Shown here piece by piece: positions 3,158 to 26,894 of a DNA stretch of 64,000 bases. The DNA comes from Nocardia sp. MH4. Lineage in GTDB: Bacteria > Actinomycetota > Actinomycetes > Mycobacteriales > Mycobacteriaceae. Location of the stretch: NCBI RefSeq assembly GCF_019266065.1, contig NZ_LPNR01000112.1, positions 372,001 through 436,000 on the forward strand. The letters run 5' to 3'. The position numbers and the translations under genes were made by a program. Every line of letters begins with the position of its first letter. The first letter of the stretch is position 1. The notes beneath the pieces were generated by a model. That model made no database searches, was not told the DNA's origin, and was given only the letters and a program-made list of their open reading frames with translations.

Positions 3158-5323
3158 TCAGCCGAGCGTTTCCCCGGCGGCGGCCTTGGTCCGCAACGAC
3201 TCCGGCACCTCGAACCGATCGCCGTAGGCGGCCCGCAACTCGTCGGCACGGGCGACGAACCCGGCGAGCCCACCCGCGTACTGGTTGATGTACTGGACGA
3301 CGCCGCCGGTCCACGCCGGGAACCCGATGCCGAAGATGGAGCCGATGTTCGCGTCCGGCACCGTGCGCAGCACGCCTTCGTCGAAACACCGCACAGTGTC
3401 GAGGGATTCGGCGAAAAGCATCCGTTCCTGCATGTCGACGAACGGGATGCCGTGATCGTCGCGGGTGTACTTCTCGACCAGGCCCGGCCACAAACCCAGC
3501 TTCTTGCCCTCGGCGTCGTAGTCGTAGAAGCCGCGACCCTCGAGCCGGCCGGGCCGGTCGAAGTCGTCGACCATGGCGTCGACCAGCGGATACGCCCTGG
3601 ACTCGGTCCAGCGCTTGCCCTCGGCGAGCAGGTTCTCCTCGAGGCTGCGCCGGATCTTCTGCGCCAGTTTCATATTGATCTCGTCGGCCAGCGCCAGCGC
3701 GCCCACCGGATAACCGGCCTGGGTGGCGGCCTGTTCCACCGACGCCGGGTGCACGCCTTCGGCGACCAGCGCGATCGCCTCGTCCATGAACTGGCCGATG
3801 ACCCGGCTGGTGAAGAAGCCGCGGCTGTCGTTCACCACGATCGGGGTCTTCTTGATCGCCAGGGTGTAGTCGATGGCCCTGGCGATCGCCTCGTCGCTGG
3901 TCTGCTCGCCGACGACGATCTCGACCAGCGGCATCTTGTCCACCGGCGAGAAGAAGTGCAGACCGATGAAGTCCTGCTGCCGCTGCACGCCGGTGGCCAG
4001 ATCGGTGATCGGCAGCGTGGAGGTGTTGGAGCCGAGCAGGGCGTCCGGGTTCACCAGCGCTTCGATCTCGCCGAACACCTTCTGCTTCAGGCCCGGATCC
4101 TCGAACACGGCCTCGACGACGAAGTCGCAGCCCGCGGCGTCGGCCGGGTCGGCACTCGGGTGGATGCGGCCGAGGATCCGGTCGTACTCGTCCTGGCTGA
4201 TCGCGCCCCTGCGCAGCGCCTTGTCGAGCAGCTTGCGCGAGTAGTCCTTACCGCGCTCGGCCGCCTCGATCGTGACGTCCTTCAGCACGACCTGCATGCC
4301 GGCGCGGGCCTGCACATAGGCGATGCCCGCGCCCATCATGCCCGCGCCGAGCACGAGGACCTTCTCCGGCGTGCGCACGGGGAAGCCTTCGGGGCGGCTG
4401 CCGCCCTTGTTGATCGTCCCCAGGTCGAAGAACAGGGACTTGATCATGTTGGTCGAGATCTGGCCGCAGATCAGGTTGGTGCAGTAGCGGGTCTCGATCG
4501 CGAACGCGGTATCGATATCGACCTGCGCGCCCTCGACGGCCGTGGCCAGCACCGCGATCGGCGCCGGCATCGGGGCGCCCTTGAGCTGCTTGCGGACGTT
4601 GGCCGGGAACGCGGGCAGGTTGGCCGCCAGCGCCGGGCTCGACGGGGTGCCGCCGGGGAGCTTGTAGCCCTTCACATCCCACGGTTGCGCCGCCTCGGGG
4701 TTGGCCGCGATCCAGGCGCGGGCCTTGTCGAACATCTCCGCGCGGGTGGCGGCGATCTCGTGGATGATCCCGACCTGCAGGGCCTTCGCGGGCTTCATCC
4801 GCTGGCCCTGGCCGACGACGTTGAGCACCGCGTCGGTGATGCCGAGCAGTCGCACGGTCCGGGTGACGCCACCCGCGCCGGGCAGCAGCCCGAAGGTGAC
4901 CTCGGGCAGGCCGAGCAGACTGCCTTTGGCGTCGAGCGCGATGCGGTGGTGGGTGGCCAGGGCGACTTCGAAGCCGCCGCCGAGCGCGGTGCCGTTGATC
5001 GCGGCGACCACCGGCTTGCCCAGCGTCTCGAGCCGGCGGAACGCGGCCTTGTAGGTGTCGAGGCCGAGGGCTATGTCGGGCGCGGTCGCCGGCGTGGCGT
5101 TCATCAGCAGGTTCAGGTCACCACCGGCGAAGAAGGTGTCCTTGCCGGAGGTGAGGATCACGCCGTCGTAGGTGTCCTTCTCGGCCTCGAGCCGGTCGAC
5201 CGTGGCGGTGAGGTCACGCGCGAACGCCTCGGTCATGGTGTTGGTCGACTGGTTCGGGTCGTCGATGGTGAGCACGAGCACCCGGTCGGCGCCGAGGTCC
5301 CAGGCGATCATGGTGTCGGTCAT
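3158..5323 (-). CDS. fadB: FadB-type 3-hydroxyacyl-CoA dehydrogenase / enoyl-CoA hydratase
   Basis: A 721-aa fusion that hydrates enoyl-CoA and then oxidises the 3-hydroxyacyl-CoA with NAD, two steps of beta-oxidation. The crotonase domain covers about residues 1-270 and includes GTALGGGFEVALA and LPEVTFGLLPGAGG. The NAD-binding fold begins near residue 320 with VLVLGAGMMGAGIAY. The dehydrogenase catalytic histidine lies in GLHFFSPVDKMPLVEIV, with the matching glutamate in VVEAVFED. Two C-terminal dehydrogenase helical repeats follow. The ATG at 5323 lies 2 bp after the thiolase stop, so the pair forms the classic FadAB trifunctional unit. Confidence 0.93.
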   Translation of the reverse strand: MTDTMIAWDLGADRVLVLTIDDPNQSTNTMTEAFARDLTATVDRLEAEKDTYDGVILTSGKDTFFAGGDLNLLMNATPATAPDIALGLDTYKAAFRRLETLGKPVVAAINGTALGGGFEVALATHHRIALDAKGSLLGLPEVTFGLLPGAGGVTRTVRLLGITDAVLNVVGQGQRMKPAKALQVGIIHEIAATRAEMFDKARAWIAANPEAAQPWDVKGYKLPGGTPSSPALAANLPAFPANVRKQLKGAPMPAPIAVLATAVEGAQVDIDTAFAIETRYCTNLICGQISTNMIKSLFFDLGTINKGGSRPEGFPVRTPEKVLVLGAGMMGAGIAYVQARAGMQVVLKDVTIEAAERGKDYSRKLLDKALRRGAISQDEYDRILGRIHPSADPADAAGCDFVVEAVFEDPGLKQKVFGEIEALVNPDALLGSNTSTLPITDLATGVQRQQDFIGLHFFSPVDKMPLVEIVVGEQTSDEAIARAIDYTLAIKKTPIVVNDSRGFFTSRVIGQFMDEAIALVAEGVHPASVEQAATQAGYPVGALALADEINMKLAQKIRRSLEENLLAEGKRWTESRAYPLVDAMVDDFDRPGRLEGRGFYDYDAEGKKLGLWPGLVEKYTRDDHGIPFVDMQERMLFAESLDTVRCFDEGVLRTVPDANIGSIFGIGFPAWTGGVVQYINQYAGGLAGFVARADELRAAYGDRFEVPESLRTKAAAGETLG

Positions 5324-5325
5324 GG

Positions 5326-6537
<1,212 letters not shown>

Positions 6538-15933: not shown

Positions 15934-16620
15934 GTGACGACGAGTTCGGCGCCCCAGACCACGGTGGACGAGGTGCTGGCCGAGCTGGCCACCTTGGCCG
16001 ACCCGAAGATCCTCGCGGTCAACGAACGGCACGGCGACGATCATGCGGTCAACCTGACCAAGCTGCGCGCGGTGGCGAAGGCGCTCAAAACCCGGCACGA
16101 GCTAGCCGGTGACCTCTGGGCGACCGGCGACACCGCGGCCCGGCTCGTCGCGATCCTGATCAGCCGCCCCAAGGCCTACACCGCGGCCGAGCTCGACGCC
16201 ATGCTGCGCGACGCCCGCGTCCCGAAGGTGCGCGATTGGCTCGTCAACTACATCGTGAAGAAGAATCCTCACGTCGAGGAACTGCGCACCCGCTGGTTCG
16301 CGGACCCCGACCCTGTCGTCGCCGCCGCGGGCTGGGCGCTGACCAGCGACCGCGTCGCGAAAACCCCCGACGGACTCGACCTCCCGCACCTGCTCGACCT
16401 CATCGAGCAGCAGATGAAGGACGCCCCTGACCGCCTCCAGTGGGCCATGAACGAATGTCTGGCGACCATCGGCATCCACCACCCCGACCTGCGCCCCCGC
16501 GCCATCACCATCGGCGAAACCCTCCGCGTCCTCGAGGACTACCCCACCCCGCCCCACTGCACCTCCCCCTACGCCCCGATCTGGATCACCGAAATGGTCC
16601 GCCGCCGTACCCGGACCTAG
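15934..16620 (+). CDS. DNA alkylation repair (AlkD-like HEAT-repeat) protein
   Basis: The 228-aa all-helical protein resembles the AlkD/AlkC superfamily. Features are the N-terminal helix NERHGDDHAVNLTKLRAVAK, repeats with SRPKAYTAAELDAML and VRDWLVNYIVKK, and the tryptophan and aspartate residues of the HEAT repeats (W near 102, W near 122). Such proteins recognise alkylated bases and may excise them, although many homologues have no proven activity. The GTG start at 15934 has a perfect GGAGGAG ribosome binding site. It follows the pepN terminator and appears to be its own transcription unit. Confidence 0.75.
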   Translation: MTTSSAPQTTVDEVLAELATLADPKILAVNERHGDDHAVNLTKLRAVAKALKTRHELAGDLWATGDTAARLVAILISRPKAYTAAELDAMLRDARVPKVRDWLVNYIVKKNPHVEELRTRWFADPDPVVAAAGWALTSDRVAKTPDGLDLPHLLDLIEQQMKDAPDRLQWAMNECLATIGIHHPDLRPRAITIGETLRVLEDYPTPPHCTSPYAPIWITEMVRRRTRT

Positions 16621-16669
16621 TCGCGGGCAAACCCCACCAGAACTGGAATCACCCTGGTTCACTTAAGGC

Positions 16670-16871: not shown

Positions 16872-17498
16872 TCACCCGGCGGAGTCCCGGCCTGTCACGC
16901 CGAGACGAATGATCAAGCGGGACAGCCAGTCCCGGGCGGCGGGCTGGTCGTTGTCGAGCAGGAGCTGGACGGTGACGCCGTCGTAGGCGGCGACGACCGA
17001 GTGGGCGAGTTCGGCGATCGAGCCGAGTTCCGGGGGCACGGTGAATCCGCTCGCGGCGAGTTTGTCGGCGATGGCCGCGCGCAGCTGGGCGCGGTGGGTG
17101 ATCAGCCGGGCGGCGATCTCAGGACGGCGGGCGGCGTGCGTGAGGAAATCGGTCTTCACCAGGAGCCAGTCGCGGTCGAGGAGCAGGGTGGCCGCGAGGC
17201 GGTCGACGAACCCGCGCACGTCGGCGGGATCGTCGACCGCGGCCAGCGCGGCGCGCACCTGCTCGGTGATCAAGGTGGCGCGCTGGTCGTAGAGGACGAA
17301 GAACAGCTCCTCGAGGCTGTCGAACTGGGAGTAGAACGCACCCCGGGTGTATCCCGCCGCACCGCACACGTCCTCGATGCGGACCAGCCCGAAACCCTTC
17401 TCGGCGAACACGGCGAATGCGGCCTCGAGCAGGCGCGCTCTGGTCTCGGCCCGGCGCCGGGTCACGCGGGGTGGCTTGGCCGTCTCGGTCGTGTTCAC
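16872..17498 (-). CDS. TetR family regulator, divergent from the FAD-dehydrogenase
   Basis: A 208-aa protein with an N-terminal HTH (about residues 15-62), including IEDVCGAAGYTRGAFYSQF, and a TetR ligand domain. The open frame extends antisense through the next gene, but homology begins at the GTG at 17498 (NTTETAKPP). It faces the flavoprotein gene across an 84-bp gap that holds a clean palindrome, the standard layout of a local TetR repressor. The ligand is unknown. Confidence 0.85.
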   Translation of the reverse strand: MNTTETAKPPRVTRRRAETRARLLEAAFAVFAEKGFGLVRIEDVCGAAGYTRGAFYSQFDSLEELFFVLYDQRATLITEQVRAALAAVDDPADVRGFVDRLAATLLLDRDWLLVKTDFLTHAARRPEIAARLITHRAQLRAAIADKLAASGFTVPPELGSIAELAHSVVAAYDGVTVQLLLDNDQPAARDWLSRLIIRLGVTGRDSAG

Positions 17499-17519
17499 GG
17501 ATTGACGATACCTCTCATC

Positions 17520-17543
17520 ATCCGATGCATTAGCGTATCGGAT
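17520..17543. promoter_or_regulatory. Candidate TetR operator
   Basis: Perfect 7-bp arms (ATCCGAT / ATCGGAT) flank a 10-bp centre in the gap between the divergent TetR and FAD-dehydrogenase genes. The 24-bp span and position suit a TetR dimer site that would control both promoters. Confidence 0.65.
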
Positions 17544-17582
17544 ACAGCAGTGAAGCTTTTGCGGAGAGTGGAGGTAGTCCGG

Positions 17583-19250
17583 ATGGATGCCGATGTCATC
17601 GTGGTCGGTGCGGGCCTGGCCGGTCTGGTCGCGACCCACGAGCTGACGCGCCGGGGCAAGCGCGTCCTGGTGGTCGACCAGGAGAACGCGGCCAACCTCG
17701 GCGGGCAGGCATTCTGGTCCTTCGGCGGGATCTTCCTGGTCGACAGTCCCGAGCAGCGCCGATTGGGCATCCGGGACTCGCTGGAGCTGGCCTGGAACGA
17801 CTGGTCCGGCAGCGCCGGATTCGACCGGCTCGACGACGAGGACAGCTGGGCCGCCCGCTGGGCCCGCGCCTACGTCGAGTTCGCCGCGGGCGAGAAGCGT
17901 TCGTACCTCACCGATCTCGGTATCGGATTCGTGCCGTCGGTCGGCTGGGCCGAGCGCGGCGATCTGCGCGCCGACGGCCACGGCAACTCGGTCCCCCGCT
18001 TCCACGTGGCCTGGGGCACCGGTACCGGCGTGGTCGGGCCGTTCACCGAGTCCGCGCTGCGCGCCGCGGACCAGGGACTGGTGACCTTCCGGCATCGGCA
18101 CCGCGTCGACGATCTGGTGTGCACCGACGGCGCGGTCACCGGCGTGCGCGGGGCGATCCTGGCCGACGACGACGCCGACCGCGGCGCACCGTCCAACCGC
18201 GACGTGATCGGCGAGTTCGAATTCCGCGCCGCCGCGGTCGTGCTCGCCACGGGCGGCATCGGCGGCAACCACGAGACCGTCCGGCGACACTGGCCCACGC
18301 GCCTCGGCGCGCCGCCGGCGACCATGATCACGGGCGTGCCCGCCTATGTCGACGGGCGCATGCTGGACATCGCCGCCGACGCCGGTGTCCGGCTGGTCAA
18401 CCGGGATCGCATGTGGCACTACACCGAAGGCATCCGCAACTGGAACCCGGTCTGGCCCGAGCACGCGATCCGGATCCTGCCCGGTCCGTCGTCGTTGTGG
18501 TTCGACGCGCTGGGCCGGCGCCTGCCCGCTCCCTACCTGCCCGGCTACGACACCCTGGGCACGCTGCGCTACCTGCGCACCACCCCCGACCTGGCCGCGC
18601 ACGACCATTCCTGGTTCGTCACCACGCAGCGGATCGTCGCCAAGGAGTTCGCGCTGTCGGGGTCGGAGCAGAATCCCGACATCACCGCGAAGAACCGGGT
18701 CGGCATGATCCGGGAGCGCGTCTTCAGCAAGGGTGCGCCCGCGCCGGTGGAGGCGTTCAAGGAGCACGGCGCGGACTGGGTGGTCGCCGACACTCTCGAC
18801 GAGCTGGTCGCGAAGATGAACACGCTCACCGCGCAGCCCCTGCTCGACCCGAACCGACTCCGGGAGCAGATCGTCGCCCGGGATCTGCAGGTCGACAACG
18901 CCTTCAGCAAAGACGCCCAGATCCAAGGCATCCACAACTCGCGCCGCTACCTCGGCGACCGGATCACCCGCACCACCGCACCGCACCGCATCCTCGATCC
19001 GGCGGCCGGGCCGCTGATCGGCGTGAAACTCCATGTCCTGACGCGCAAGTCGCTCGGCGGCATCCAGACCGACCTCCACTCGCGGGCACTCGGCGCCGAC
19101 GGCACCCCGATCCCCGGCCTGTTCGCGGCGGGTGAGGCCGCGGGCTTCGGCGGTGGCGGCGTGCACGGCTACAACGCCCTCGAGGGCACCTTCCTCGGCG
19201 GGTGCATCTTCTCCGGGCGGTCGGCGGGCCGGGCGGCCGCCGACGCCTGA
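17583..19250 (+). CDS. FAD-binding dehydrogenase (KstD/fumarate-reductase-like flavoprotein)
   Basis: This 555-aa protein starts with the dinucleotide motif VIVVGAGLAGLVATHELTRR (about residues 5-24). The FAD-binding segment GGQAFWSFGGIFLVD follows, and the C-terminal motif GGGGVHGYNALEGTFLGG is typical of the FAD_binding_2 family. It resembles the mycobacterial 'FAD-binding dehydrogenase' group of about 560 aa; the physiological substrate is unknown, and steroid-like ketones are a possibility rather than a conclusion. The ATG at 17583 has a GGAGG ribosome binding site, and the reading frame upstream is antisense to the TetR gene. A perfect terminator follows. Confidence 0.85.
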   Translation: MDADVIVVGAGLAGLVATHELTRRGKRVLVVDQENAANLGGQAFWSFGGIFLVDSPEQRRLGIRDSLELAWNDWSGSAGFDRLDDEDSWAARWARAYVEFAAGEKRSYLTDLGIGFVPSVGWAERGDLRADGHGNSVPRFHVAWGTGTGVVGPFTESALRAADQGLVTFRHRHRVDDLVCTDGAVTGVRGAILADDDADRGAPSNRDVIGEFEFRAAAVVLATGGIGGNHETVRRHWPTRLGAPPATMITGVPAYVDGRMLDIAADAGVRLVNRDRMWHYTEGIRNWNPVWPEHAIRILPGPSSLWFDALGRRLPAPYLPGYDTLGTLRYLRTTPDLAAHDHSWFVTTQRIVAKEFALSGSEQNPDITAKNRVGMIRERVFSKGAPAPVEAFKEHGADWVVADTLDELVAKMNTLTAQPLLDPNRLREQIVARDLQVDNAFSKDAQIQGIHNSRRYLGDRITRTTAPHRILDPAAGPLIGVKLHVLTRKSLGGIQTDLHSRALGADGTPIPGLFAAGEAAGFGGGGVHGYNALEGTFLGGCIFSGRSAGRAAADA

Positions 19251-19946: not shown

Positions 19947-20573
19947 TCAGTGCCGCGCGGCGATGTGCGCGATCTCGGCGGCCGCGCGGCGATCGACGCC
20001 CGTCGCGAGCAGGCACGCCAGGGCCGCGTCCCGCGCGGCGTCCGCATCGACCCACTCACCGTCGCTGTGCGCGTTCAGCAAGGCGAGCACCAGCGCCGTG
20101 AGTACCCTGGACACCGCCGCGGGCGGAAGGTGGTCGGCGAAGGTTCCGTCGGCTTGACCAGCGGCTATCAAGGTGACCAGGCGGGCGCGAACGGGCGCGA
20201 GCCGGTCGGTCATCCGCGCCCGCGACCCGGCTTCCTCCAGGCGGAGCAGCAGCTGGAACCCGTCACCGACGGCCCACAGCGCGACCGCCATATCGGCGAT
20301 CGCCCTGGCGGGCGGTTGCGCGGTGTCGATACTGTCCAGCGCCCGATCGACCTGCTCGAAGGCTTCGTCGAGCATGCCGTCGATCAACGCTTCCCTGGTG
20401 GGGAAATGACCGTAGAGGGTGCGCCGGACCATGCCCGCGGCGGCGGCGATGTCTTCCATGCTCGCCAGCGGATTACGCAACAACTCGTCCCCGGCCACAG
20501 CGATGATCCGTCGCCGGTTGGCCAGTGCGCGCGGCCCGAGGCCTGCGGTGGTCGAGTGCGTCGTCGCAGTCAC
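19947..20573 (-). CDS. TetR family regulator
   Basis: A 208-aa TetR protein. The HTH lies at about residues 25-65 and includes MEDIAAAAGMVRRTLYGHF. The C-terminal half is hydrophobic and alanine-rich, ending in a helix with DRRAAAEIAHIAARH. The GTG at 20573 has an AAGGA ribosome binding site; the frame upstream lacks homology. Palindromic words occur on both sides (19776-19813 and 20605-20624). This suggests autoregulation and control of the neighbouring membrane protein gene, and perhaps of the divergent methyltransferase operon. Confidence 0.85.
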   Translation of the reverse strand: MTATTHSTTAGLGPRALANRRRIIAVAGDELLRNPLASMEDIAAAAGMVRRTLYGHFPTREALIDGMLDEAFEQVDRALDSIDTAQPPARAIADMAVALWAVGDGFQLLLRLEEAGSRARMTDRLAPVRARLVTLIAAGQADGTFADHLPPAAVSRVLTALVLALLNAHSDGEWVDADAARDAALACLLATGVDRRAAAEIAHIAARH

Positions 20574-20728: not shown

Positions 20729-21400
20729 GTGCTGGTTGTGCGCGCTCCGCGCGTGTACCGCCCGCAGGCCGACACCTGGTTGCTGTGCCGAGCGCTGCGC
20801 GAGCTGTCACCGGTGGGCGGTGGACGCGTGCTGGACGTCTGCGCCGGCACCGGCGTGCTGAGCCTGGCCGCCGCCGCGGCGGGGGCGCACAGTGTCACAG
20901 CGGTCGACCTGTCCTGGCCCGCGCTGATGTCGACCTGGCTGAACTGTCGCCTCCGTGGCGTCACGGTGCAACTGCTGCACGGCGATTTCACCGCCGCACT
21001 GCGGCTGGCGCGATTCGACCTCGTGCTGGCCAACCCGCCGTATGTCCCCTCCGCGGCGCACACCGCCCGCGGCGCCGCGCTCGCCTGGGACGCGGGACCC
21101 GACGGCAGGAATGTGCTCGACCGGTTGTGCGCGACGCTGCCCGATCTGCTCACCGAACGCGGCGTCGGGTTGATCGTGCACTCGGTGATGAGCGATACCG
21201 ACCGCAGTCTGGCGCAGCTGCGCGATCGCGGTGTCGATGCCAGGGTGGTCACCTCCGACACCATCCCGTTCGGGCCGGTCCTGCGCTCGCGCGCCGGTTG
21301 GCTGGCCGCGCAGGGCCATCTCGCGCCCGGACAGCGTCACGAGGAATTGGTGGTGATCCGTGTCGACCGAACATCGTGTCCCGTCGGTGACCACTCCTGA
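20729..21400 (+). CDS. HemK2/MTQ2-like SAM-dependent methyltransferase
   Basis: The 223-aa protein has a class I methyltransferase fold. Motif I is VLDVCAGTGVLSLAA (about residues 34-48), and the active-site NPPY tetrad sits at residues 102-105 in LVLANPPYVPS. NPPY is typical of amide-nitrogen methylation on glutamine, as in the release-factor modifying enzymes HemK/PrmC and MTQ2, or of adenine N6 methylation. It lacks the extra N-terminal domain of PrmC. It is the first gene of an overlapping trio with a CDGSH protein and a diiron protein, which suggests a substrate other than a release factor. Confidence 0.85.
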   Translation: MLVVRAPRVYRPQADTWLLCRALRELSPVGGGRVLDVCAGTGVLSLAAAAAGAHSVTAVDLSWPALMSTWLNCRLRGVTVQLLHGDFTAALRLARFDLVLANPPYVPSAAHTARGAALAWDAGPDGRNVLDRLCATLPDLLTERGVGLIVHSVMSDTDRSLAQLRDRGVDARVVTSDTIPFGPVLRSRAGWLAAQGHLAPGQRHEELVVIRVDRTSCPVGDHS

Positions 21401-21599
21401 GCCGAGGCGCGTCGTCCTCGTCGACAGCGGCCCCGCGTTGATCGACGGTCCGGTCGATCTGGTCACCCCCGACGGCAGCGTGCTGCACTGCGATCGGTTC
21501 CGGGTCGCGCTGTGCCTGTGCAAGCGCTCCTCGATCTACCCGCTGTGCGACACCAGCCATCGCCTGCGCCGTCGGCGCGAACAGGCGGACTCGGCGTGA
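21360..21599 (+). CDS. CDGSH iron-sulfur protein, 79 aa
   Basis: A small protein with a single CDGSH-type motif: C52-x-C54-x2-S57-x3-P61-x-C63-D64-x2-H67, which provides the three cysteines and one histidine that hold a [2Fe-2S] cluster in this family. The usual glycine after the aspartate is a threonine here. There is no membrane anchor. The GTG at 21360 overlaps the methyltransferase gene by 41 bp; another in-frame GTG at 21387 would shorten the overlap to 14 bp. Likely role: electron donor or acceptor for the diiron protein encoded next, with which it shares a 4-bp GTGA overlap. Confidence 0.85.
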   Translation: MSTEHRVPSVTTPEPRRVVLVDSGPALIDGPVDLVTPDGSVLHCDRFRVALCLCKRSSIYPLCDTSHRLRRRREQADSA

Positions 21600-22630
21600 G
21601 GACCGTCGACGTCGCGCCCCACCGCCAGTTGCCCGCACCGCGCGGTGACCTTTCCGCCGGGGTCGTCGAATTGCTGACACTCCCACCGGGTTCCACCGCG
21701 CCGACCGGCGCCGGGCACGACCCCTACGGCGACGATCTGCTGCTGGCCCTGCACACCTGCTACGAACTGCACTATCACGGCTTCGCCGGTGTCGACGACG
21801 ACTGGGAGTGGGATCCGGGCCTGCTGCGCTTGCGCGCGACCCTGGAGGCGGACCTGCTCGCGGCCCTGCGCGCCGATGTTCCCGGCGGCGCCGATGTCAC
21901 CGGCGAACTCGACCGCCTCCTGGAACCGTCACCCGAGGGCGTCGGCATCGCCGGATTCCTCGCCGAGCAGGGCACCGCCGATCACCTGCGCGAGTACTTC
22001 GTCCACCGCTCGATCTACCACCACATCGAAGCCGACCCCTACGCCTGGGTGATCCCGCGGCTGCGCGGGACGGCGAAGGCGGCGCTGGTCGCGGTGGAGT
22101 TCGACGAGTTCGGCGGCGGCCGAGGCGAGCGCGTCCACGCGCGGCTCTACGCCGACCTGCTCGCCGGCGCCGGGCTCGATCCCCGCTATCTGCACTACCT
22201 GGATGTGGTGCCCGCGCCGATGCTGGCATTGGTCGACATGATGTCGCTGTTCGGGCTGCATCGTGGCCTGCGGGCCGCCTCGATCGGGCATTTCGCGACC
22301 GCCGAGATCACCTCGTCGCCGGCCTCGCGCCGCTTCGCCGAGCTCGCCCGCACCCTGCTGCCGGACCCCGCGTGCGCGCACTTCTACGCCGAGCATGTCG
22401 AAGCCGACGCCGTGCACGAGCAGGTGATGCGCCACGACGTCATCGGCGCGCTGCTCGATGCCGAACCCGACGCCGCCGCCGTCGTCGTGTTCGGCATCCA
22501 GGCGACCTCGCTGCTCGAGGACCGCTTCGCCGACCACGTGCTGAGCTGCTGGGCGGCGGAGCGGACATCGCTGATCGCGGGGCGGGATCAGTCGATCGGC
22601 GGCCTGACCGCGTCGTCGACGCAGGTGTAG
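21596..22630 (+). CDS. Haem-oxygenase-like diiron redox enzyme (HDO type)
   Basis: The 344-aa helical protein matches the 'iron-containing redox enzyme' family (Haem_oxygenas_2 fold). Candidate iron ligands are grouped on three helices: E57-L-H59-Y-H61; H142, H143 and E145 with E168/E171; and H267, D271, H274 and E275 in EHVEADAVHEQVMRHD. Such enzymes use a labile diiron site and O2 to oxidise or cleave small carboxylates or amines in biosynthesis. I chose the GTG at 21596 because it overlaps the CDGSH stop (GTGA); the frame runs further upstream inside that gene. The 3' end overlaps the convergent STAS gene by 43 bp. Confidence 0.82.
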   Translation: MRTVDVAPHRQLPAPRGDLSAGVVELLTLPPGSTAPTGAGHDPYGDDLLLALHTCYELHYHGFAGVDDDWEWDPGLLRLRATLEADLLAALRADVPGGADVTGELDRLLEPSPEGVGIAGFLAEQGTADHLREYFVHRSIYHHIEADPYAWVIPRLRGTAKAALVAVEFDEFGGGRGERVHARLYADLLAGAGLDPRYLHYLDVVPAPMLALVDMMSLFGLHRGLRAASIGHFATAEITSSPASRRFAELARTLLPDPACAHFYAEHVEADAVHEQVMRHDVIGALLDAEPDAAAVVVFGIQATSLLEDRFADHVLSCWAAERTSLIAGRDQSIGGLTASSTQV

Positions 22631-23001
22631 TAGCGAAACAGCTGGCGGACACCGACCAGTTCCAGTGCGCGTTCGGCCGCCGCACCGCCGGTGACCAGGC
22701 GCAGTTCGATCCCGTGCCGCCAGGCGTCGGCTTTGATCTCGGCGAGCGAGGCGGCGACGCGAATGCTCAGGAATTCGGTCTCGCGCAGATCGAGGACCAT
22801 CACCCGGGTTCCGGAACTCCGCGTGCGATCCAGCAGTGCCCGCAGGTGGGGTCGATGGGCGGCATCGAGCTCACGACCGGCGAACAGGACCCAGCAGCCG
22901 GGCCGACCGGCACGTCGCAATCGCCGCGCCACCCACCCACGCGACGATCCGAGGTACCAGCGCAACCGGCTCGCATGCCGACGACCAGCGACGACAGCCA
23001 T
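22588..23001 (-). CDS. STAS-domain protein (anti-sigma antagonist-like)
   Basis: A 137-aa protein with an arginine-rich N-terminal tail (about 30 residues) and a STAS fold: WVLFAGRELDAAHRPHLRALL, then VMVLDLRETEFLSIRVAA. In classical antagonists the loop reads FLDS with a phosphorylatable serine. Here it reads FLSI, so regulation by phosphorylation may be altered. It lies downstream of the SigF-type sigma factor gene and its anti-sigma gene in the same direction, which suggests that it releases or tunes that sigma factor. The ATG at 23001 has a GGGAGG ribosome binding site. Confidence 0.8.
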   Translation of the reverse strand: MAVVAGRRHASRLRWYLGSSRGWVARRLRRAGRPGCWVLFAGRELDAAHRPHLRALLDRTRSSGTRVMVLDLRETEFLSIRVAASLAEIKADAWRHGIELRLVTGGAAAERALELVGVRQLFRYYTCVDDAVRPPID

Positions 23002-23110
23002 GGGGCCTCCCGCTCGAGAGGGCATTACGGACCGCCGCGAGGCTCCGCGACGGACCGGGGTGGCTGGACGTCTCAACCTGGATTGATTCTGGCACGCGCG
23101 TGCACCGCTG

Positions 23111-23947
23111 TCACTGCGCGGGCATCGGCTCCTCGCCGAGGGCCTGCTCTCGCAGCGACCCCAAGGTGCGCGCGAGGATTCGCGAGACCTGCATCTGGGA
23201 GACCCCCAGGCGCCGCGCGATCTCGCTCTGCGTCAGATTCTCGTAGAACCGCATCACCAGCACGCGGCGCTCCTCGCTCGGCAGCGCGGCGATCAGCGGG
23301 CGGACCGCGATCGCGTCCTCGGTCAGCTGATAGCACGGCTCGTCGGCACCGAGGGTGTCGGTGATCGGCTGGGCGGAGTTGTCGCGATCGTCCTGGGTGA
23401 ACCCGTCGATCGAGTTGGTCTGGTAGCCGTTGCTCGCGACGAGCGCCCTGGTGACCTCGACGAGGTCGACATCGAGTTCGGCGGCGAGCTCCTGGGCGTT
23501 GGGGACGCGGCCCAGGCGCTGGGACAGGTCCTCGGTGGCCGGGCCGATCAGCTGCTGGATCTCCTTGAGCCTGCGCGGGACGTGCACGGCCCAGGTGCGG
23601 TCCCGGAAATGCCTGCGGACCTCCCCCATGATCGTGGGGATCGCGAAGGACAGGAAGGTATAGCCGCGGGTGACGTCGAACCGGTCAACAGCCAGCAGGA
23701 GTCCGACCCGAGCGGTCTGCTCCAGATCGTCGAACTGCTCCCCGCGGCCGGTGAATTTCCGGGCGATGTGATCGGCCAGCGGCAGACACAGGCGGATGAC
23801 TTCGGCCCGGACGGCCGCGTAGTTCTCGTCACCGGGCGGCAGTGCTCGCATCTTCTCGAACCAGGGTTCGATGTTGTCGTAGCTGTCACCACGCGAATGG
23901 GATCGCTGGGCGGTCGAGTGTTCGGCTGTGGGGGCTTCCAATGTCAT
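23111..23947 (-). CDS. sigF: RNA polymerase sigma factor, SigF/SigB group
   Basis: A 278-aa group 3 sigma factor. Region 2 carries FDDLEQTARVGLLLAVDRFD and the DNA-melting segment YTFLSFAIPTIMGEVRRHFRD. Region 3 includes VPRRLKEIQQL. Region 4 ends in the HTH LTQSEIARRLGVSQMQVSRI, which reads the -35 element. The partner anti-sigma gene lies just upstream (76-bp gap), as in usfX-sigF of mycobacteria. Expected role: stationary-phase, stress or envelope response with promoters of the type GTTT-N15-GGGTA. Two such promoters occur within 1 kb. Confidence 0.88.
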   Translation of the reverse strand: MTLEAPTAEHSTAQRSHSRGDSYDNIEPWFEKMRALPPGDENYAAVRAEVIRLCLPLADHIARKFTGRGEQFDDLEQTARVGLLLAVDRFDVTRGYTFLSFAIPTIMGEVRRHFRDRTWAVHVPRRLKEIQQLIGPATEDLSQRLGRVPNAQELAAELDVDLVEVTRALVASNGYQTNSIDGFTQDDRDNSAQPITDTLGADEPCYQLTEDAIAVRPLIAALPSEERRVLVMRFYENLTQSEIARRLGVSQMQVSRILARTLGSLREQALGEEPMPAQ

Positions 23948-24023: not shown

Positions 24024-24461
24024 TCAGGACGCCGCTGGTCCGCGCACCCGGCGGATCCAGCCGAATTCGACGGCGGTCGGGTAGCCGTTGCCGCGCGGAT
24101 CGAAGTCTTCGTAGTGGGTGCTCAGCGCGTCGGTCAGGGTGGCGACGACGTGCCAGCCGAAGGCGTTCTCGTCGATCGCCACCGGGGTGCGGGCGTGGGT
24201 GGCGATGCGGGCACCGAGCGCGCCGTCGCCGCCGGTCAGCGTGCATTCGATGACGGCCGCCGGCGCGGCGACCAACACCAGGGCGGTGACCACCTCGTCC
24301 ACCGCCAGCAGCAGATCGGTGATCTCGTCGAGGGCGAAACCCTCGACGAGCAGAACGGTCTCGGCCAGCGCGTGCGCCATGGTCAATTGATCGAGTTCGG
24401 CCTGGACCTGGAATCCGACCGTTCTCGATCGCGGCGTCGTCTCACGATCTTCGTCTCGCAC
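24024..24461 (-). CDS. Anti-sigma factor, RsbW/UsfX type
   Basis: The 145-aa protein has a degenerate HATPase_c fold. The N-box helix reads LLLAVDEVVTALVLVA (about residues 50-65), and a glycine-containing segment near the C-terminus resembles mycobacterial RsbW (UsfX). Such proteins hold the SigF-type factor inactive and can phosphorylate STAS antagonists. The GTG at 24461 is preceded by GGGAGG. It should be co-transcribed with the sigma factor gene downstream. Confidence 0.78.
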   Translation of the reverse strand: MRDEDRETTPRSRTVGFQVQAELDQLTMAHALAETVLLVEGFALDEITDLLLAVDEVVTALVLVAAPAAVIECTLTGGDGALGARIATHARTPVAIDENAFGWHVVATLTDALSTHYEDFDPRGNGYPTAVEFGWIRRVRGPAAS

Positions 24462-24545
24462 GCGCCGCCTCCCTCGCACACCTCCACCGAATGGTCGCAG
24501 ACTACCCCGCGTCCGCTGCCCTTCTCGCACAGGACAATCCGGGCA

Positions 24546-24787: not shown

Positions 24788-24812
24788 GTTTCCCCCTCCC
24801 GACGCCGGGTAC
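24788..24812 (+). promoter_or_regulatory. SigF-like promoter, plus strand
   Basis: GTTT at 24788-24791, a 15-bp spacer and GGGTAC at 24807-24812 give a full match to the actinobacterial SigF-type consensus. It lies 45 bp before the ATG of the small basic protein gene at 24858. The sigma factor gene itself lies about 1 kb away. Confidence 0.65.
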
Positions 24813-25199: not shown

Positions 25200-26801
25200 T
25201 CAGCTCCCCCGCAGGGCCACGCTGTGCACGCCCGCGCGGCGACCGGAGAAGACGCAGTCGGCCAGCGACAGTCCGCTGACATAGGAGTTCGAACAGATGC
25301 CGACCGCGGCGCGTCCCGCCGCGAACAGACCCGGCACGATTCCGCCCGCCTCGGCCCGGACCGCGCCGGTGTCCTCGTCGACCAGCAGGCCGCCGAGGGT
25401 GAGCATCGGCATCGGGTAGGTCAGCCGGGCGCTGAACGAGATGTCGAGCAGGGTGAAGGGTCCGGTGCGGAGCGGGCGGCGGATGTCGTCGGGCTTCCCG
25501 AGGGGATCGGGCAGATCGTGGTCGATAGCGCGGTTGTGGGCGTCTACCGTCTCGCGCAGCGCGGCCGCGTCGACGCCCGCGCGGGTGGCCGCCTCTTCGA
25601 CGGTCCGGCCGCGGGCGCGCCCCATCCGCAGCAATCGCTCGGTCTGCATGCGCTGGAACCACACCGACTGCGGTCCGATCTGGGCGCGCGCCTCGGCTTC
25701 GAGTTCCGCGTCGACCAGCAGCCATGCCCGGTGGCCGGGACTCGTGGCCACGGCCGCGCCGAGCGCGGCGCCGTAGCGGGATTCGTCGATCATGCGCTGA
25801 CCCAGCGCATTCACGGCGATCGCGCCGAACAGGGCGCTGGGTGGGGCGATGAAGCGCCAGGTCGACAGCGCGTCCATCTTGCCGCTGGCGGCGCCGATCG
25901 CCTGGGCCATGGTGATGCCGCTGCCGTCGTCGCCCGCGGTGCCCAGCGGCAGGCCCTGCGACCACGGGTAGTCGGGGGCGTGCTGGGCGACCATCGCGCC
26001 GTTGGCGATGAATCCGCCCGTGGTGAGCACGACGCCGGACTTCGCCTGGATCCGCACCGGCGTGCCGTGTTTGCGTTCGATCCGGGCCAGCAGCGCTTCC
26101 ATCGCGTTGCGCAGACCCGGGTGGTACACGCCGGGTTTCGCCGAGATCCGGGCCAGGGCGGCGAAGCGGCGGCGCACGGCCGCGGGCGCACCGTCGAGGG
26201 TGACCGCCTCGATGCCGGTCACCTGGCCGTCCTCGACGACGAGCCGGGTCGCCCGGGTTCCGGTCCGGACGCGCACACCGTGCCTGGCCGCCGAGGCGGC
26301 CAGCGGCCCGAACAACGCCTTGCCCGACACACCGGGACCGTGAGCGCGGTGACCACGCTGACGTGGTTTCGCGAGATCCCGGTATCCGCCGGAGTTCTCG
26401 CTGCCGGAGTAGTACAGGTAGTAGTCGTCGGACGGGTAGGAGGTCTTGAAGGGACACAGCGACGCCTGGAAGGGCACGCCGTGCCCGGTCAGCCAGTCGA
26501 TCATCGCCGGCGATTGCTCGCAGAAGCGGCGCAGGGTCGCGGCGCTCACCGCGTCCCCGACCTCGGCTTCCAGGTAGGCGAGCATGGTGTCGACGTCGTC
26601 ATCGATGCCGGCGTCGCGTTGCACCCAGGTCCCGCCACCGGCGTAGACGATGCCGCCGGACAGCGCCGTCGCCCCACCGCCGAGATACCGGTCGATCGCC
26701 AGTACGTCGGCGCCCGCTTCCCGCGCGGTCAGCGCCGCGGCCACCCCCGCCCCGCCGTACCCGACGACCACGACATCGGCCGCACAGTCCCAAGCCCGCA
26801 C
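25200..26801 (-). CDS. KstD-like FAD-dependent oxidoreductase
   Basis: A 533-aa flavoprotein of the FAD_binding_2 family. It has the N-terminal motif VVVVGYGGAGVAAALTAREAG, the loop GGGATALSGGIVYAGGG, and a C-terminal ICSNSYVSGLSLADCVFSG segment where 3-ketosteroid dehydrogenases also carry a tyrosine-glycine pair. It probably dehydrogenates a cyclic ketone or steroid-like compound. I prefer the GTG at 26801 (RAWDCAADVV) because a GGAAGGTGGA ribosome binding site precedes it; the frame is open to 26894. A KstR-consensus operator lies 52 bp upstream, which supports a sterol link. It is convergent with the basic protein gene. Confidence 0.82.
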   Translation of the reverse strand: MRAWDCAADVVVVGYGGAGVAAALTAREAGADVLAIDRYLGGGATALSGGIVYAGGGTWVQRDAGIDDDVDTMLAYLEAEVGDAVSAATLRRFCEQSPAMIDWLTGHGVPFQASLCPFKTSYPSDDYYLYYSGSENSGGYRDLAKPRQRGHRAHGPGVSGKALFGPLAASAARHGVRVRTGTRATRLVVEDGQVTGIEAVTLDGAPAAVRRRFAALARISAKPGVYHPGLRNAMEALLARIERKHGTPVRIQAKSGVVLTTGGFIANGAMVAQHAPDYPWSQGLPLGTAGDDGSGITMAQAIGAASGKMDALSTWRFIAPPSALFGAIAVNALGQRMIDESRYGAALGAAVATSPGHRAWLLVDAELEAEARAQIGPQSVWFQRMQTERLLRMGRARGRTVEEAATRAGVDAAALRETVDAHNRAIDHDLPDPLGKPDDIRRPLRTGPFTLLDISFSARLTYPMPMLTLGGLLVDEDTGAVRAEAGGIVPGLFAAGRAAVGICSNSYVSGLSLADCVFSGRRAGVHSVALRGS

Positions 26802-26852
26802 CAGTCCACCTTCCGAGCCGACGCCGACCCCGTCGTCACCGTCCGACCCAAC

Positions 26853-26866
26853 TATAACGTGTTCTA
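26853..26866. promoter_or_regulatory. KstR-consensus operator
   Basis: TATAACGTGTTCTA matches TNNAACNNGTTNNA, the published KstR recognition pattern for cholesterol-catabolism genes, at every fixed base. The flanking C and G extend the symmetry to 16 bp. It sits 52 bp before the KstD-like gene in an AT-rich spot. Confidence 0.6.
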
Positions 26867-26894
26867 GAAATCTGGCCGGGTGGGTTCCCCGCAC

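Follow-up and report, generated by a model that had tools for sequence, protein, structure and literature searches.

A recurrent gene pair of a putative N-oxygenase-type haem-oxygenase-like diiron oxidase and a CDGSH protein, accompanied in one clade by a HemK2-type methyltransferase, in Nocardia and other actinobacteria

Three overlapping genes and their surroundings

The window (the whole analysed stretch of 64,000 nucleotides, from a Nocardia genome of 7.18 Mb) carries on its + strand three consecutive genes: a HemK2/MTQ2-family SAM-dependent methyltransferase of 223 aa (20729-21400), a CDGSH (NEET-type) protein of 79 aa (21360-21599) and a haem-oxygenase-like diiron oxidase (HDO) of 344 aa, putatively of the N-oxygenase type (21596-22630). 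The overlaps of 41 bp (methyltransferase/CDGSH) and 4 bp (GTGA; CDGSH/HDO) described in the initial annotation are borne out by the ORF coordinates, and its three family calls all lie above the respective cut-offs (TIGR00537, 117.2 bits vs. 87; PF09360, zf-CDGSH, 52.9 bits vs. 29.5; PF14518, Haem_oxygenas_2, 179.1 bits vs. 28.9). The stretch CLCKRSSIYPLCDTSH and the NPPY motif of the methyltransferase (codons at 21032-21043, + strand) are seen directly in the sequence. The genome contains one match each for the HDO and the CDGSH protein, and its further matches to the methyltransferase are distant (38.5 bits at most). A search with PADLOC returned a partial mad2 match (72.5 bits) and a weak type I methyltransferase match for the methyltransferase, and no defence match for the CDGSH protein or HDO of the window.

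Downstream, on the - strand, lie two genes that we regard as non-core, a STAS gene convergent with the trio (22588-23076; PF01740, 36.8 bits), with a 43-bp overlap between its end and the 3' end of the HDO gene, and a gene for a SigB/SigF/SigG sigma factor (23111-23947; TIGR02980, 280.3 bits vs. a cut-off of 234.35). Both are conserved in close relatives: the same STAS neighbour is found in loci L031-L037 and L098, and the same sigma factor neighbour in L031-L037. The next gene (24024-24530, - strand), listed for context only, is a candidate for an RsbW-like anti-sigma protein by its position and a related family; the part of its product that was searched gave no Pfam match at 1e-6. Genes for FAD_binding_2 oxidoreductases flank the region on both sides (17001-19250 and 25200-26894).

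A TetR-family gene (19947-20573, - strand; PF00440, TetR_N, 34.9 bits) is indeed present and divergent at the promoter side of the trio, as initially annotated, but it is not conserved there: a comparison with 110 loci (30 loci with only ~1.5 kb flanks) matched its own locus and gave one weak hit of 30 bits. A role as a conserved regulator of the trio was therefore rejected, and the gene looks incidental; the TetR-family gene found close to the trio in L083 is a different one.

No pattern of the SigF-type promoter consensus, which we take to be GTTT-N-GGGTA, was found upstream of the window's trio, and a sigma-70 promoter scan likewise found none before it. Two SigF-like patterns do occur elsewhere in the window (16608-16632, - strand, and 24788-24811, + strand; 0.12 expected), neither of them before the trio. 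Across the collected loci, the strict pattern precedes 19/64 trio heads vs. 96/623 control heads in named loci and 6/80 vs. 30/504 in the others, and a looser pattern 25/64 vs. 159/623 and 26/80 vs. 59/504, respectively, a mixed enrichment. Eleven Amycolatopsis loci (among L082-L097) have GTTT-N15-GGGTA, which resembles a SigF-type promoter, at about -72 to -92 upstream of the methyltransferase; matches are, however, also frequent among control genes from these regions. An alignment of 11 sequences revealed no apparent promoter common to the DNA upstream of the methyltransferase. Patterns of the GTTT-N-GGGTA form are tabulated in a passage of PMC4694148.

Conservation, gene order and history

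A contig scan found 125 HDO relatives, and among the best 80 of these 125, which were kept, the closest named ones belong to Nocardia. A total of 144 loci (80 named, 60 from other genomes and 4 plasmid records), collected by HDO similarity and related by descent, was then scanned with profiles built from the loci. Of the 144 loci, 132 have a CDGSH gene no more than 5.5 kb from the HDO, and a methyltransferase gene is present in 94 (77 and 73 of the 80 named loci; 55 and 21 of the other 64), the carriers including Nocardia, Amycolatopsis, Saccharothrix, Streptomyces and others. Co-conservation of the three families in actinobacterial genomes, on which the initial annotation had staked its proposal, is thus observed. 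Read along the HDO strand, the order is HDO, methyltransferase, CDGSH in 40 loci, HDO with convergent CDGSH and methyltransferase in 38, HDO with convergent CDGSH only in 26, the window's own methyltransferase, CDGSH, HDO in 12, HDO followed by CDGSH in 9 and the reverse in 3, with five single arrangements. In the remaining 11 loci, including Rhodococcus L109 and L106 (one of three Actinopolymorpha loci), the HDO stands alone, and adjacency to CDGSH is therefore not obligatory. Chance is no reasonable account of the three-gene adjacency, since the same families adjoin in many genomes and in several gene orders.

Of 131 genomes sampled from the order, 78 contain an HDO match (some of them weak), mostly one per genome. 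A phylum-wide sample of 149 genomes contains PF14518 in 49 and PF09360 in 53; by coordinates read off in this sample, a CDGSH match lies within 3 kb of 20/24 PF14518 matches scoring 178 bits or more vs. 0/40 weaker ones, and the pairing with CDGSH thus largely belongs to this HDO subfamily. HDO distances correlate with CDGSH distances (r 0.81 for 59 loci, with the species tree not taken into account).

In a tree of 67 HDO rows (66 dereplicated loci and the window) built by a quick method, in which support is poor for 29 of the 64 inner branches, a branch with an SH-aLRT value of 100 separates 41 rows, 35 of which have the methyltransferase, from 26 rows, of which one does. Presence of the methyltransferase changes 7 times on this tree vs. 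a mean of 22.5 in shuffles, and gene order changes 7 times among the methyltransferase-bearing rows. The wider unit is HDO plus CDGSH, and the methyltransferase is a mark of one clade. We infer that the pair is older and was joined by the methyltransferase close to the base of the large group; as the tree is midpoint-rooted, it does not itself give this direction. The originally proposed functional unit is supported by conservation across changing gene orders and by the overlapping frames.

Neighbours within 5 kb of the HDO were counted in the 66 dereplicated loci and named by Pfam matches of the query proteins or their relatives (the RsbW-like name being the least sure). The families are GCS2 (17 loci), SigF-type sigma factors (15), GT2-like (10), luciferase-like oxidoreductases (8), STAS (8), RsbW-like (6), catalase, SDR, FMN reductase and GAF/ANTAR (5 each), Orn/Lys/Arg decarboxylase (4), hemerythrin (3) and DDAH (1). 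Across 41 genomes of the order there are 107 GCS2 and 96 SigF matches, from which ~0.3 loci each would be expected; tail probabilities serve only as a guide, as thresholds differ somewhat between loci and background and the loci share descent. A GCS2 gene has the orientation of the HDO and lies at most 200 bp from it in 12/66 loci, and a GT2-like gene does so in 8/66, a spacing and orientation which suggest that they form operons with the HDO. The annotated plasmid regions (5 of 11; the other 6 carry no annotation) contain, among others, gas vesicle, CsbD, STAS, SpoIIE, sigma factor and GAF/ANTAR genes.

Several individual arrangements were also observed. The GCS2 (glutamate-cysteine-ligase-like) gene lies directly upstream of the HDO in L083, L086, L088, L091, L137, L140 and others, and in the methyltransferase-free loci L116, L119, L121, L122, L124 and L162 the gene that adjoins or overlaps the HDO is a weakly recognised GT2-like one. 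The Orn/Lys/Arg decarboxylase occurs within 5 kb in 26 of the 80 named loci, many of them from Nocardia (e.g., L041:6990-8450). A Kitasatospora plasmid (L112) encodes an annotated dimethylargininase (5139-5915) 62 bp from the HDO, a single case that hints at arginine derivatives.

The diiron site and its two partners

By alignment, residues E145, E171, H181, E237, H267, D271 and H274 of the Haem_oxygenas_2 domain (21989-22516, + strand; PF14518 match) correspond, with identical spacing, to E189, E215, H225, E281, H311, D315 and H318 of SznF. Six of these residues are conserved in all 145 sequences, among them the extra Glu of auxiliary helix 2 (E145, counterpart of SznF E189), and D271 in 144, with a gap in the remaining one. 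Judged by this alignment, the core of three His and three carboxylates (E171, H181, E237, H267, D271, H274) is complete, and the whole set is of the seven-ligand 3H/4C type of SznF and RohS, estimated to be carried by ~25% of HDOs (PMC13108848). The initial annotation had tied its diiron assignment to a full ligand set in the predicted structure of the 344-aa protein, and such a set is present by sequence. In SznF, activity is abolished by substitution of E215, H225, E281, H311, D315 or H318 (PMC11705231), and SznF E189 and RohS E93 are Fe1 ligands contributed by the auxiliary helix (PMC11611611).

A haem-oxygenase-like fold is predicted for the HDO by an AlphaFold2 model from 48 sequences (pLDDT 93.8, pTM 0.92), and its best PDB matches are HDOs. 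In the PDB, a profile of 52 sequences matched SznF (2e-19), HrmI (4e-16) and RohS (9e-16 to 2e-15). In structural alignments of the model by VIA-align, HrmI came first (Z 32.6; 302 residues, 2.4 A), followed by SznF (29.6; 309, 2.9 A), RohS (27.6; 281, 3.4 A), FlcD (25.0; 295, 3.5 A), CADD (22.9; 208, 2.5 A) and both UndA and BesC (18.0; 218 and 205 residues), and Foldseek ranked SznF and HrmI at the top with RohS next. The description as an N-oxygenase-type HDO is better supported than generic O2 chemistry, because the seven SznF ligands are kept and the predicted fold is nearest to HrmI, SznF and RohS. The ligand set alone does not prove N-oxygenation and leaves the reaction undefined, since HrmI, itself an N-oxygenase, has a 3H/3C set (PMC13108848); function can diverge among HDOs with identical primary ligands.

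All cluster ligands of the C-x-C-x2-(S/T)-x3-P-x-C-D-x2-H pattern are kept in 132/132 CDGSH partners (in the window with S, at 21513-21560, + strand), and the nearest solved chain is 3tbm (8.4e-18). The name-giving CDGSH reads CDTSH in the window (21546-21560, residues 63-67) and in 91 of the 94 methyltransferase-bearing loci. Among the 39 CDGSH partners of methyltransferase-free loci, 28 read CDGTH or CDGSH and 8 CDTSH; 11 more such loci are without CDGSH. The methyltransferase has human N6AMT1/HemK2 as its closest solved structures by sequence, and its NPPY motif is invariant among 29 aligned sequences and present in 94/94 overall.

Proposed role, alternatives and known systems

We read the cassette, with a probability of about one half, as a module for small-molecule oxidation whose core is a stable pair of an N-oxygenase-type HDO and a dedicated CDGSH protein. 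The HDO would bind two irons, form a peroxo intermediate with O2 and hydroxylate a nitrogen of an amino-acid-like substrate; the CDGSH protein would hand electrons back to the diferric centre, perhaps from reduced flavin, or aid iron loading; and the HemK2-type enzyme would N-methylate either that substrate or a protein. The GCS2-family carboxylate-amine ligase that some relatives encode just upstream of the HDO could supply the substrate or cap the product. As the module often lies amid SigF/STAS-type stress regulators, it probably serves the cell in stationary phase or under stress. The route from flavin via CDGSH to HDO is plausible by analogy, given the need of characterised HDOs (except FlcD; CADD is single-turnover) for a reducing system in multiple turnovers (2024, PMC11363339) and the precedents of MboB and of mitoNEET, which takes up electrons from FMNH2 generated by flavin reductase and delivers them to O2 or ubiquinone (PMC9490426). 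A bolder and tentative version would see here a widespread actinobacterial HDO-CDGSH pair, the first NEET-served HDO, which together with a later N-methyltransferase makes an N-oxygenated, N-methylated metabolite in the general stress response.

The best surviving alternative concerns the CDGSH protein, which might, rather than carrying electrons, donate iron or a [2Fe-2S] cluster for assembly or repair of a labile diiron centre. The lability of the diiron cluster in many HDOs (PMC13108848), the similarly labile NEET clusters with their links to iron and Fe-S handling (PMC6006223) and the strict retention of the cluster ligands among the CDGSH partners are all consistent with such a donor; the aforementioned reductant requirement and the example of MboB, a dedicated HDO partner that is a redox partner (PMC13185094), make it possible but rather unlikely.

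Somewhat more doubtful is stress protection in place of a pathway, where the HDO would curb the damage done by H2O2 or O2 to cells in a dormant or dried state, the CDGSH protein would sense or buffer redox state and iron, and the methyltransferase would modify translation factors. The SigF-type sigma, STAS and catalase genes near the HDO and the gene content of the annotated plasmid loci agree with this, as does the precedent of DtpC of Acinetobacter baumannii, a predicted HDO co-transcribed with the catalase KatE: either protein alone suffices in desiccation, the double mutant survives poorly, and metal-ligand mutants of DtpC fail to complement (PMC13232832). However, the likeness to DtpC is one of predicted fold, a site among stress genes is silent on enzyme activity, and the GCS2 or GT2-like genes in apparent HDO operons suggest metabolism. 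The originally suggested oxidative tailoring, if placed in a classical natural-product cluster with the TetR as pathway regulator, appears improbable: characterised HDOs mostly serve natural products (PMC13108848) and a methyltransferase with an HDO has a precedent in SznE and SznF (PMC11705231), but the recurrent identified neighbours are sigma factors, stress genes and single enzymes with no assembly line among them, the TetR gene is not conserved, and the HDO mostly occurs once per genome. That three unrelated stress genes merely share an island, of the kind that gathers such genes, is very improbable in view of the overlapping frames, the correlated HDO and CDGSH distances (the species tree aside) and a proximity that survives order changes and spans two deep groups.

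The families themselves are already known, and in public annotation the three products appear by name next to each other, with no function assigned to the set. Among the literature matches listed, with subscription papers mostly outside the coverage, no description of the HDO-CDGSH pair or of the trio was found, and as far as these matches show both are new. Full-text searches found no paper on CDGSH with heme-oxygenase-like and none on CDGSH with SigF, and the listed matches for CDGSH with diiron had no HDO in title or abstract; CDGSH does not occur in the main texts of the mycobacterial SigF papers PMC4694148, PMC7390352 and PMC7693655. In a passage of PMC11854999, alkane monooxygenase genes are described as having CDGSH and GAF/ANTAR genes nearby. 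Most characterised HDOs depend on an external reductant, and many bind their irons only loosely; the conserved pair makes the supply of electrons and iron to HDOs directly testable, offers a possible missing redox partner of the HDO class and provides a concrete partner for a group of bacterial CDGSH proteins. For the genera that carry it, the trio points to a small-molecule pathway yet to be characterised.

Overall, partial counterparts of the cassette exist in several known systems. MitoNEET/CISD and bacterial CDGSH proteins share the full 3Cys-1His motif, whereas the window type reads CDTSH rather than CDGSH/CDGTH; HemK2/MTQ2 (N6AMT1) shares the TIGR00537 match, whereas the window methyltransferase is bacterial and tied to an HDO. 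DtpC-KatE likewise has an HDO in a stress setting, with an adjacent catalase, and CDGSH does not occur in the main text of that study (PMC13232832). MboA-MboB of mangotoxin biosynthesis also has an HDO and an Fe-S redox partner dedicated to it, and was described in 2026 as possibly the first HDO pair of this kind; MboB is, however, a flavin-[2Fe-2S] NAD(P)H reductase, and MboA makes an alkyne and has a 3-His/3-carboxylate site in 3/4 chains (PMC13185094). HrmI and RohS, among the best structural matches of the window HDO, show 18% identity to it, and no CDGSH partner was found reported for either. SznF/StzF of the streptozotocin pathway shares all seven HDO ligands at the same spacing and is accompanied there by the N-methyltransferase SznE/StzE, and we know of no CDGSH protein in this system. 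It differs in its identity to the window HDO (18-20%), in its C-terminal cupin, absent from the window HDO (PF14518 being the sole Pfam domain found in the 344 aa), and in that SznE is an arginine guanidino-methyltransferase rather than of the HemK2 type. In that pathway arginine is N-methylated by SznE and then N-hydroxylated by SznF, whose cupin makes the N-N bond (PMC11705231), and it is this succession that, by analogy, the combination of a methyltransferase with a seven-ligand HDO recalls.
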